From the NCBI GenBank assembly GCA_022736715.1, contig DZDJ01000007.1, positions 41,076 through 105,075 of the forward strand: DNA of 64,000 bases, read 5' to 3'. This document shows positions 56,697 to 62,177 of the stretch, piece after piece. Under the pieces are notes generated by a model. The model did not search any database. It was not told the DNA's origin and saw only the letters and a program-made list of their open reading frames with translations. This stretch comes from Edaphobacter aggregans. Its GTDB lineage: Bacteria > Acidobacteriota > Terriglobia > Terriglobales > Acidobacteriaceae. A program made the position numbers and the translations under genes. Positions within the stretch are counted from its first letter, which is position 1; each line of letters starts with the position of its first letter.

Positions 56697-57686
56697 TCAC
56701 AATGCCGCTTCATGCGCGCGTAGTTCAGCCACTATCTCCGCGGCGGCCTGCCGGGCAAGATCGCCTTTTTCCGGTGGAAAGCTGATGGCGCCTACGCGGG
56801 CATGGCCGCCGCCACCGTATCGCTCGCAGAGGGTGGCCAGGTTCACCATTTCCTCCGGCTTGCGCGTTGTCCACGGATTGGAACCCACCGCGACCTTCGT
56901 CCGGAAGCTGCTTTTGCTCAGGCCAACGTTGTAGGTCGCCCGCGGGTGCAGATAATACGGAATGAACTTGTTGTAGCCCTCGGTGGGATGGTCGGTAATG
57001 TCAAAGTAGATGGTTCCCTGCTCGCAGACAGAGCGCTCCCGGATGAGTGCAATGGACTTTTCATGCCGCTCCAGCAGCGGGGGCAGCAACTCCTGCACAA
57101 ATGGCTGGTCGAGCACCTGCTGCAGACTCATGCTGGTCAGCAGCGGAATGAGCCGCGGCACCAGGGCCGGGTCCTGCGTGGACTCGATGACCATGGTCAG
57201 CTTCATGGCCGGCGCGGCCATTTCCACGGCAGACTCGGCGCTTTCGTAACGGGCGCTGTCCACAATGTCTGCCCAGCGCACCAGCTCCGCCAGCGGTGCG
57301 GCGTCAAAGCCGAACCTGGTGCTGGCAATGTGGGCGATAAAGCTGGTGCAGGAGGGGTACTGCGGGTCATAGAACTTGCGCATCGTCTGCGAGCCGTCCT
57401 GCTGGCCGCGCAGATAATGCGCCTGGTCTTCCGGCGTCAGAAATGCGCTCAGATGATGATCGAACCACCAGGTGATGCGGGGAGACGCGGAGTATTTGAA
57501 ATCGACAATCGCGTTTTCGTCTCCAATAAAATCGGCCTCGTTGAACAGCGCACCTGCGCGGTGCACCAGCCCATGAAATTCATAGGATGCGGAGGTGCCG
57601 ACGCACTCGCGATGGAAACGCGCAAATAACGATGCGGAGCAGGCCCCGTCAAAACACTTGTCGTGGTAAAAAACACGGATCTTCAA
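56697..57686 (-). CDS. DHH-family phosphoesterase-like protein
   Basis: IRVFYHDKCFDGACSASLFARF; TWWFDHHLSAF; RYGGGGHARVGAISF; TTG start inferred. Confidence 0.8.
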   Translation of the reverse strand: MKIRVFYHDKCFDGACSASLFARFHRECVGTSASYEFHGLVHRAGALFNEADFIGDENAIVDFKYSASPRITWWFDHHLSAFLTPEDQAHYLRGQQDGSQTMRKFYDPQYPSCTSFIAHIASTRFGFDAAPLAELVRWADIVDSARYESAESAVEMAAPAMKLTMVIESTQDPALVPRLIPLLTSMSLQQVLDQPFVQELLPPLLERHEKSIALIRERSVCEQGTIYFDITDHPTEGYNKFIPYYLHPRATYNVGLSKSSFRTKVAVGSNPWTTRKPEEMVNLATLCERYGGGGHARVGAISFPPEKGDLARQAAAEIVAELRAHEAAL

Positions 57687-57791
57687 ACGTAAAATTCCTT
57701 CCACTTCCCCGGAGAAAATAAAATATATCGAATCTCTAAGCATTGACGGCGGTGCGCCCGCTGTCAAGCCAGTAGAGCGGAAAGTACAAAA

Positions 57792-59408
57792 TCATTCCTG
57801 CGAGAGCTGCTGCATGCGGCTTTCGCGCAGATCAATATCATGTTCCAGCAGGCGCAGAACTTCATCGTTGATGCGGCCCTCGTTGCGCAGGCGCACCACG
57901 GTATGGCGCTCCACGCCAAGTACGGCCAGGGCCACCTCACGCAGGCGGCTCTGATGCTGCGGGCTGATCCTCTTTCCGCTTGCATCCTGTCCCAGAATGG
58001 CGCCCAGTTGCATCTGGTAGCGGCGCATCATGCCATCGTAGATGTCCGCATATTGCGGCTCGTTCTTTTTCTGCTCGTCCTGCAAATACTCCATGGCTGC
58101 CGTCAGCATCATTCGCCGCGCATCTTCTTCTTCGCAGTTTTTTTCCTGGCGCATGGGGAAACCCAGTATGCGGATGATCCAGGGCAAGGACAACCCCTGC
58201 AGCACCAGCGTGACCAGAATGACGCAAAAGGTGAGAAAAACGATCAGGTCGCGCTGTGGAAAGGGGTTGCCGTCGGCCAGCGTCACCGGCAGCGTAATGG
58301 CGGCGGCCAGGGCGATTACGCCGCGCATCCCCGTCCAGCCAACCAGAAAGCTGGAGCGTAGGGAAGGCCGCAGCTCGTTGCGATGCAGCAGGTGCCTGCG
58401 GATGCGGTAGGAGAGCTGCATGCTCAGGAAGACCCATATCATGCGCAGCGCGATCAGCAGCGCGCTCAGGACCAGGCCATATTCGATAAGGGTGTGCAGG
58501 CCGTAGCCGTGGATGGCAGCCATTACATAGGGCAACTGCAGGCCGATGAGCACAAAGACCAGGCCATTGAGGATGAAACTGAGCGTGTTCCAGACGGCAT
58601 AAGTCTGGATGCGCACACTGGGCGAGAAAAAGTAGGCGCTCTGGCGGCTCAGATACAGCCCACAGACCACCACGGCCAGCACACCAGAGGCGCGAATCGC
58701 CTCTGCGGCGAGATAGGCAACATACGGCACCAGCATGCTGATGGTGATCTCGATCGGCCCATCATCCACCCAGCGCTCGAACCACTCCACCAGCAGCCCC
58801 ACCACCAGACCCAGCACAATACCGGCAACTGTCAGGTAGGTCCAGCGCAACAGCCCGGCGGCGAAGGTGGGAGTCCGGCCATCCACCAGAATGCCCAGCC
58901 CAAACTCCAGCGCCAGCAGCCCGGTGGCATCGTTCAACAGGCTTTCGCCTTCCAGAATATCCACAATGCGGCGTGGCAGGCGCATGCGCCTGGCGACGGA
59001 GGTGGCTGCAATGGCATCTGTGGTTGCGACCACAGCGCCAAGCACGAATCCGACGCGCCAGTCGAAGCCAGCCAGGAACCAGCCGGCAGCTTTGGCGACG
59101 CCGAAGACGGTGAATCCGACCAGTCCGCAGGCCAGCAAAAGAATGGTGATCAGATTGTGGCGAAACTCTCTCCAGGAGGTGAGCCATGCGGCGGAGTACA
59201 GCAGCGGCGGCAGAAAAATCAGAAAAACTACTTCCGGATTCAACCGGACCGGTGGAATGCCCGGCACAAAGCTGAGTAACAGGCCCGCCAGCACCAGAAT
59301 AATGGGAAATGGAATGCGCAGTTTGCGGGCCAGCGTTGCAAAGACCACCACAAACAGCAACAGGAACAGCAGGATCAATTGCAGCGTCTGCAGCCAGCCG
59401 CCGTGCAT
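57792..59408 (-). CDS. Na+/H+ antiporter (CPA1 / NhaP-like)
   Basis: PEVVFLIFLPPLLYSAAWLTSWREFR; GAVVATTDAIAATSVARR; ILEGESLLNDATGLLALEF. Confidence 0.95.
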   Translation of the reverse strand: MHGGWLQTLQLILLFLLLFVVVFATLARKLRIPFPIILVLAGLLLSFVPGIPPVRLNPEVVFLIFLPPLLYSAAWLTSWREFRHNLITILLLACGLVGFTVFGVAKAAGWFLAGFDWRVGFVLGAVVATTDAIAATSVARRMRLPRRIVDILEGESLLNDATGLLALEFGLGILVDGRTPTFAAGLLRWTYLTVAGIVLGLVVGLLVEWFERWVDDGPIEITISMLVPYVAYLAAEAIRASGVLAVVVCGLYLSRQSAYFFSPSVRIQTYAVWNTLSFILNGLVFVLIGLQLPYVMAAIHGYGLHTLIEYGLVLSALLIALRMIWVFLSMQLSYRIRRHLLHRNELRPSLRSSFLVGWTGMRGVIALAAAITLPVTLADGNPFPQRDLIVFLTFCVILVTLVLQGLSLPWIIRILGFPMRQEKNCEEEDARRMMLTAAMEYLQDEQKKNEPQYADIYDGMMRRYQMQLGAILGQDASGKRISPQHQSRLREVALAVLGVERHTVVRLRNEGRINDEVLRLLEHDIDLRESRMQQLSQE

Positions 59409-59573
59409 CTATCGCCTGCCCTTCTGTTGCTTCCGGCACTGAGGGCACAGAGTGGTATCGCACTGTGCTGTGTAGTTGCGGCCGACGCGCCTGCGGTGCG
59501 CCAGAAAGCGGTCCCGGGCCTCGTGTAGCTCTTTCTGTGTCACGGTAGCATGATCATCGATCCGCGTCTGCAC
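59409..59573 (-). CDS. Putative 54-aa small Cys-containing protein directly upstream of the antiporter (GTG start)
   Basis: Read by hand: MQTRIDDHATVTQKELHEARDRFLAHRRRVGRNYTAQCDTTLCPQCRKQQKGRR*; TAG abuts antiporter ATG; GGGGTGG upstream of GTG. Confidence 0.5.
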   Translation of the reverse strand: MQTRIDDHATVTQKELHEARDRFLAHRRRVGRNYTAQCDTTLCPQCRKQQKGRR

Positions 59574-59702
59574 AGCCCCACCCCGGTTTCAGAATGACTG
59601 AGGAGTAAAGGACAGCATAGCAAATGCGGAGTGTGCCCTGGCCGACTGTTTGCAGACTGTTTGCGGCGAGCAGCGCTGACAAATAGACTTAAAGCAGGCC
59701 GC

Positions 59703-62177
59703 ATGAACTCCAATCAATTTACCCGCAACATTTCGGATCCATATCCTCGCCACAATAACTCCTCCCGATGGCTCAGGCGGAGCCTGTCCATCCTGTTGCT
59801 ATGCGTGATTGCCGCCTTTGTGGTGGTCGTTGGTGCACAGCTCTGGCTGCGCCATGCGATGCACGCTTCTCTGCCGCAATTGGATGGCACGCTGCACGTC
59901 GCCGGACTCGCGGCGCCGGTCACCGTGTTGCGCGACCAGCATGGCGTGCCGCATTTGCGCGCCGCCAACCCGGACGACCTCTTTTTTGCGCAGGGATACG
60001 TCACAGCGCAGGACCGGCTATGGCAGATGGACATGCTCCGCCGCCATGGCGCCGGAGAGCTGGCAGGGATTCTGGGCCCAGGACTGCTGGAGCACGACCG
60101 CATGCAGCGGTATCTGCAACTGCGCATTGCTGCCGACAATTCCGTGGCCCATATGCCGACAGACGAGCTGCACTGGCTGCAGGACTATGCCCGCGGCGTG
60201 AATGCGTTTATCCAGGGCCATCAGAACAATCTGCCGGCGGAGTTTCGCCTGCTGCACTACTCGCCCCGCCCGTGGCTGCCGCGGGATTCTGTGCTGATTG
60301 GACTGGTGATGTTCCAGGACCTGACGACGGAGTTTCCCACCAAGCTGGCGCGGGAGGCAATTGCCTCGCGGCTTTCGCCGGAGCAGATGCAGGACCTGTA
60401 TCCTGTAGGCTCCTGGAGAGACCATCCGCCGACGCAGCCATTTGTGGACCTGACAGCGCCGCAGGTGGTCCCGAATATTCCGCTGGATCAATCGCAGACG
60501 AAGCTCGACCTGCAAGAGCAGGACATCGAACATTTGCGCGACACGCTTAAACTGGACCACTCCCTTTTCTCCTGCGATGGCTGTCTCTCCGGATCGAATG
60601 ACTGGGTGATTTCCGGCGCGCACACCGCAACTGGAAAACCGCTGCTGGCCAACGATATGCACCTTGGCCACACGATTCCGAATATCTGGTACATGGCCGA
60701 TCTGCAGGCGGGCAGCTTCCATGTAGCAGGAGTTACCCTGCCCGGAATGCCCTTTGTGATTGTTGGCCATAACGACCGCATTGCCTGGGGGTTTACGAAT
60801 CTCGGCGCAGACGTGCAGGACCTGTACGTGGAGCAGACCGATGGCAAAGGCGACTACAGGACTCCTAGCGGCTGGCAGCCAATGCAGCATGATCGGGAAG
60901 TGATCCATGTGCGCGGCGGCTTTGACCAGACGATTGATGTGGAAAGCACCGACCATGGCCCGGTGATCACGCCGATGCTGCCGCACGAAAAGCGCGAGCT
61001 GAGCCTGCGCTGGACGATTTACGATCCCGGCCTGGTGCGGATTCCCTACTTTGCCGTGGATGCAGCGCAGGACTGGACACAGTTCTGCGCCGCTTTTGCG
61101 GATTTTGGCGGGCCAGCGCAGAACGCCGTCTATGCCGACGTGGATGGCAACATCGGCTATCACGCGGTGGGCAAGGTGCCGCTGCGCACCAATGGCCTGA
61201 GCGGGACCCCCATCACGGACTGGCAGCATGAATGGAAGGGGTACATCCCCTTTGATGAGCTGCCGCAGGTCTACAACCCGCCGGACGGTATTCTGGCCAC
61301 GGCCAATGCGCGCGTTACAACAGACGATTATCCCTATCCGATCACGCTGAACTGGGCACCGCCGTATCGCAATGAGCGCATCTGGAAAGTGCTGGAACGC
61401 AAGAGCAAGGACGGCGACCGGATGACCGCGCAGGACATGCTCGATCTACAGACAGACGTTTACTCGGCGCTGGACCATGAGCTGGCGCAGCGATTTGCGT
61501 ATGCCATTGATCACACGCCGAAGACCACAGAGCAGCTGCGACAGGCGGCCAACATCCTGCGCATCTGGGACGGCAAGGTGGAGGAAAAAGATGCTGCCCC
61601 CACGATTGTGGACGCCACCCGCGCGGCTTTGTGGCAGTTGCTGCTGGAACCTCAACTGGGGAAGGACTGGAAGCTCTACACCTGGGGCTCCTCCAGTTAT
61701 GCGCTGGAAGAGATTGTGATGTTTACGCCGAACCGCTGGCTGCCGAAAAATTATCCCACCTGGGACAGCCTGCTGACCGCAGCCGTGGAAAAGGGGCTGA
61801 AAGATGGCCATGCTCCGGAGGACGTGGCGCAGTGGCAGTACGGGCCGGTGCATCCGGTGGAGATAGAACATCCGCTGTACAGCAGGCTGCCCTTCTTCCG
61901 CGCGTGGACCGGCACAGGCGTGCTGCCGCAGAGCGGCGATACGACCACGGTCAAGCAGGTGAGCCGCACTTTTGGCCCGTCGGAACGCCTTACAGCAGAC
62001 CTGGGCCAACTGGACAACTCCACGCTGAACATTGTGATGGGCGAGTCGGGCGATCCGGTGAGCCCGTGGTATCGGGACCAATGGCCTTACTGGTATGACG
62101 GCACCACCTTCCAGTTGCCGTTTACGGACGCAGCCACCCATGCGGCAGCGCAGCATACGCTGACGCTGCTGCCCTGA
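59703..62177 (+). CDS. Penicillin acylase-family Ntn hydrolase
   Basis: Membrane anchor; VLRDQHGVPHLRAANPDDLFFAQGYVTAQDRLWQMD; SGSNDWVISGAHTATGKPLLANDMHLG. Confidence 0.94.
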   Translation: MNSNQFTRNISDPYPRHNNSSRWLRRSLSILLLCVIAAFVVVVGAQLWLRHAMHASLPQLDGTLHVAGLAAPVTVLRDQHGVPHLRAANPDDLFFAQGYVTAQDRLWQMDMLRRHGAGELAGILGPGLLEHDRMQRYLQLRIAADNSVAHMPTDELHWLQDYARGVNAFIQGHQNNLPAEFRLLHYSPRPWLPRDSVLIGLVMFQDLTTEFPTKLAREAIASRLSPEQMQDLYPVGSWRDHPPTQPFVDLTAPQVVPNIPLDQSQTKLDLQEQDIEHLRDTLKLDHSLFSCDGCLSGSNDWVISGAHTATGKPLLANDMHLGHTIPNIWYMADLQAGSFHVAGVTLPGMPFVIVGHNDRIAWGFTNLGADVQDLYVEQTDGKGDYRTPSGWQPMQHDREVIHVRGGFDQTIDVESTDHGPVITPMLPHEKRELSLRWTIYDPGLVRIPYFAVDAAQDWTQFCAAFADFGGPAQNAVYADVDGNIGYHAVGKVPLRTNGLSGTPITDWQHEWKGYIPFDELPQVYNPPDGILATANARVTTDDYPYPITLNWAPPYRNERIWKVLERKSKDGDRMTAQDMLDLQTDVYSALDHELAQRFAYAIDHTPKTTEQLRQAANILRIWDGKVEEKDAAPTIVDATRAALWQLLLEPQLGKDWKLYTWGSSSYALEEIVMFTPNRWLPKNYPTWDSLLTAAVEKGLKDGHAPEDVAQWQYGPVHPVEIEHPLYSRLPFFRAWTGTGVLPQSGDTTTVKQVSRTFGPSERLTADLGQLDNSTLNIVMGESGDPVSPWYRDQWPYWYDGTTFQLPFTDAATHAAAQHTLTLLP

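Follow-up and report, generated by a model that had tools for sequence, protein, structure and literature searches.

The window, a 64,000-nucleotide stretch of the Edaphobacter aggregans genome, contains a penicillin acylase gene that diverges from a short open reading frame (ORF), behind which lie a gene for a CPA1-type Na+/H+ antiporter and a gene for a 356-residue protein (Table 1). The short frame runs on the minus strand from 59573 to 59409 and translates to VQTRIDDHATVTQKELHEARDRFLAHRRRVGRNYTAQCDTTLCPQCRKQQKGRR, with its TAG immediately 5' of the antiporter ATG at 59408. The earlier note, in which this ORF was first pointed out, gave its peptide, coordinates, GTG start, TAG|ATG junction and lack of internal stops exactly, as re-checking of the sequence confirmed. 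The purine-rich stretch that it placed before the GTG was likewise borne out by an anti-Shine-Dalgarno duplex energy of -7.1 kcal/mol, compared with a random median of -2.2. The acylase probably starts at ATG 59703 (MNSNQF...) and not at the listed GTG 59631; the sequence around this ATG resembles that of linked relatives. The 356-residue protein is present in 369 of 398 family genomes, yet has no Pfam match at E<=1.

Table 1. Features of the locus, numbered from the first base of the window.
Feature	Position	Strand	Basis
Putative fur remnant, 54 codons, GTG to TAG	59409..59573	(-)	Sequence; family Fur profile E=3.3e-9
Part from Fur N-terminus, residues 1-42, ending in the shared CTG codon	59448..59573	(-)	Up to 45-54% identity to intact Fur N-termini
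Part from Fur C-terminus (LCPQCRKQQKGRR and stop), starting in the shared CTG codon	59409..59450	(-)	Codon-level comparison with intact genes
Extended -10 element TGCTATGCT, putatively retained from the former fur promoter	59614..59622	(-)	Motif TGnTATnCT; 41-49 nt before GTG
AGAAGGGCAGG, probable antiporter ribosome-binding site inside the last codons of the remnant	59415..59425	(-)	Duplex energy for the 18 nt before ATG
CPA1-type Na+/H+ antiporter, 538 aa, directly after the stop of the remnant	57792..59408	(-)	PF00999 E=3.1e-62; TIGR00831 above cut-off; sister to locus-linked antiporter clade, 90/94
356-aa gene without Pfam hit, flanking marker of the fur locus ('DHH', a working label only)	56697..57767	(-)	Lies close to intact fur genes of relatives
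Penicillin acylase, divergent neighbour of fur in relatives	59703..62177	(+)	PF01804 E=3.4e-203

Pfam and NCBIfam searches with the 54-residue ORF gave no match, because the domain that is modelled there is missing from it, and an Rfam search of 57500-60000 found no RNA family. When a Fur profile built from 32 relatives was run against all six frames of the window, the ORF was found with E=3.3e-9 and the next-best segment with E=5.9, so that it is more than a chance ORF. At the threshold of E<=0.01, a search of 398 family genomes matched residues 1-42 to the N-terminus of a longer protein in 133 genomes besides its own (best E=3e-8). Nearly all of these matches are full-length Fur frames, those examined being about 165 residues long. 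Residues 42-54 align with the extreme C-terminus of the same protein: the end of the ORF, LCPQCRKQQKGRR, corresponds to the C-terminal end (LCEECRKKNEGRR and similar), which in relatives lies about 330 nt further on. Although this C-terminal match spans 12-13 residues only, the C-terminal 9-mer of the ORF ranks third-best against the Fur profile among the 104,181 9-mers in the six frames of the window. At the codon level the N-terminal part closes in the CTG of 'TIL' and the C-terminal part opens in the CTG of 'GLC', with exactly 108 codons missing between them. The Cys-containing C-terminus singled out in the earlier note is the CxxC end of Fur.

The intact frames follow the pattern RIDD...REA..IF..HLKRVGLKHT.QRDTIL...HLSTDEL...TTVYRTLKLL...HHHMVC.CG...YGLCEDCRKK... 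and find their best matches among solved structures in ferric uptake regulators (E=1e-25). Their best NCBIfam model is a Fur model, with a score below its equivalog cut-off. The identity of the intact gene as fur is supported by textbook Fur boxes just upstream of eight intact copies, which agree with the consensus at 14-16 of 19 positions (shuffled mean 9.8). These boxes, palindromes of the GAAAATGAAATTCATTTTC type, lie near the fur start at L013, L015, L047, L051, L052, L057, L059 and L060 and suggest autoregulation of the intact genes; no Fur box was found in the window.

The position of the ORF agrees with its sequence. Twelve fur regions were read, and in 11 of them intact fur has beside it a homologue of the acylase (divergent), of the 356-residue protein, or of both (one or both markers in L062, L063 and L065-L073, neither in L064); in L068 and L070 several kilobases separate the acylase from fur. 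By descent the ORF belongs to the Fur family, since both its ends show significant similarity in the right order and its locus is shared. Taken together with the loss of the middle and of conserved residues described below, this makes it very probable that the ORF is what is left of this lineage's fur gene, from which 108 internal codons were lost in frame. A deletion has one chance in three of being in frame.

The retained ends show signs of decay. Of 21 N-terminal columns conserved in at least 90% of 32 intact fur copies, nine are changed in the remnant, whereas intact copies deviate at 0-3 when each is left out in turn. K33N, R38C and I41T are among the changes, at positions where all 32 intact copies agree. 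Most relatives have a Met codon ahead of this point; the remnant has not kept it, and its frame opens at a GTG, where Leu stands in most of them. The nonsynonymous distance of the remnant (dN 0.41) exceeds the median between intact copies (0.20), but the divergent intact copy of genome G012 gives 0.36, and dN by itself is therefore no proof of relaxed constraint. The dN/dS ratio was set aside as proof of relaxed selection, with synonymous sites near saturation and G012 giving a similar value. Nor does the open frame say much, because simulated neutral substitution left 54 codons free of stops in 62% of the simulations with 20 changes and in 44% of those with 40. A single genome carries the stub, which can therefore be seen in no second strain.

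Only one FUR-family gene in the window's own genome (C316) passes the cut-off; PerR models give it its highest scores, and a peroxiredoxin-like gene is found nearby. A search of this genome found no second Fur of the remnant's type, and no part of the assembly contains the missing middle; there is no intact copy elsewhere of which the remnant could be a duplicate fragment. This bears on the idea that the organism has an intact fur from which the assembly skipped 324 bases, as might be suspected of a draft genome of 349 contigs with a contamination value of 5.88. Besides the absence of the middle, such an artefact would leave unexplained the altered near-invariant residues in the retained ends and the loss of the usual start ATG, and skipping of unique sequence without a long repeat is rare; we consider it very improbable. 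Still harder to credit is a functional mini-protein, for example a zinc-binding peptide or one interfering with another FUR-family protein. The CxxC and the first helices are retained, but the stub has no recognition helix, dimerisation domain or metal sites, the part that remains has changed at conserved positions, and no relative among the 398 family genomes searched has such a protein.

About half of the family genomes sampled have a Fur of about 165 residues. Canonical Fur is missing from roughly half, nearly complete genomes included; the FUR genes of these, where there are any, are PerR-like or of other kinds. Genes of the DtxR family (PF02742) did not obviously track the loss of Fur, and a literature search found nothing on Fur loss in Acidobacteriota. 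In a tree of the 356-residue protein the window's genome falls near genera that mostly have no fur, with the fur-bearing G012 also close, and fur has probably been lost more than once. The repeated absence of Fur in Acidobacteriaceae is thereby documented, and it raises the question of how iron is controlled in these bacteria without a Fur of this type.

The earlier note had proposed a translationally coupled leader or regulatory small protein for the antiporter and had made this depend on conservation of the frame upstream of orthologous antiporters. No match to the ORF was found there at any of the 33 loci with readable upstream DNA. Because almost every match in the other 133 genomes of the family is a full-length Fur, the ORF is better read as a degraded fur than as a dedicated leader or regulatory peptide. 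A functional translationally coupled leader is nevertheless compatible with descent from fur, differing in that it claims a present function: ribosomes would read the stub, termination at the TAG would hand them over to the antiporter ATG, and the frame would be kept for this coupling. The abutting TAG and ATG, the frame open over 54 codons and the good ribosome-binding sites before both starts (-7.1 kcal/mol at the GTG; -7.5 kcal/mol over the 18 nt before the ATG, random median -2.2) all accord with it. We nonetheless judge it unlikely, given that none of the orthologous antiporters has such an ORF, that drift alone gives an open frame about half the time and that the antiporter has a strong ribosome-binding site of its own. 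Coupling is mechanically plausible, because ribosomes may stop beside the ATG of the antiporter, whose ribosome-binding site lies in the final codons of the stub, and it is possible as an incidental effect of translation; nothing suggests that the stub has been selected as a regulatory peptide. Less likely again is a stub co-opted as a translated leader ORF, in which a decayed regulator gene would serve as a coupling device and set the translation of its replacement, the antiporter.

We now return to the stub as a fur remnant and consider how the antiporter came to lie behind it. Other genera (such as g35) have the antiporter between the acylase and the 356-residue gene without a fur remnant, and among the genomes read only that of the window retains the scar. 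Antiporter copies linked to this locus form one clade (98/94), of which the window's antiporter is the sister (90/94), on a long branch and with moderate support. This placement suggests that the window's genome branched early within the lineage whose antiporter came to occupy the fur locus. A scan of GTDB contigs with the antiporter returned one relative only, and no congener. The antiporter on contig C5 of G027 (L061/L081) is split into two overlapping frames, by a frameshift in the gene or in the assembly.

The comparison supports the view that the antiporter became established between fur and the 356-residue gene in an ancestor common to other genera; once it had settled behind fur, deletion of fur would have left the fur promoter upstream of the antiporter. 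No intact fur directly followed by an antiporter was recognised in the family coordinate lists, and the intermediate state with both genes is for this reason one that we infer. Of 32 intact fur genes, 21 have the promoter motif TGnTATnCT no more than 180 nt upstream, where shuffled sequences would give it in 0.75%, a count that is not blind, as the motif was spotted by eye in these upstream sequences before counting, and that draws on related genomes which are not independent. In a comparison made afterwards, on sequences outside the motif definition, it was found upstream of 5 of 10 antiporters linked to the fur locus, being missing from the other 5, vs 0 of 23 unlinked ones. A standard sigma-70 and terminator scan gave nothing beyond chance. 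On this evidence it is reasonably likely that the antiporter took over the fur promoter. The stub would then be transcribed as a vestigial first ORF, and possibly translated, but would matter only through its DNA, with the promoter upstream and the ribosome-binding site in its last codons, and not as a protein.

An orphan small ORF is in this way explained by gene decay, and the case carries a warning for small-protein annotation: an ORF that is open, preceded by a Shine-Dalgarno sequence and neatly abutting the next gene can be a deletion scar. The remnant is an ordinary one, yet it shows a route by which an ion-pump gene comes to another gene's promoter, a plausible take-over of which one genome has been kept at an intermediate stage.

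Compared with Fur (ferric uptake regulator, PF01475), the remnant has the N-terminal 42 and C-terminal 12-13 residues, and shares its locus and promoter element with the intact family gene, but it has lost near-invariant residues and 108 internal codons. With these have gone the recognition helix (TTVYRTL region), which leaves the DNA-binding domain incomplete, and the dimerisation domain with its His/Cys metal sites (HHHMVC..C region), of which the last CxxC alone is left. It resembles translationally coupled leader ORFs in that its stop codon abuts the next start codon, and differs from them in lacking conservation upstream of orthologous genes and in originating from a decayed regulator gene. 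It is also like bacterial pseudogene remnants formed by internal deletion, in which two gene ends are joined and substitutions accumulate in one lineage only; here, in contrast, the two ends meet in frame by chance and the ribosome-binding site of the next gene lies inside the remnant.
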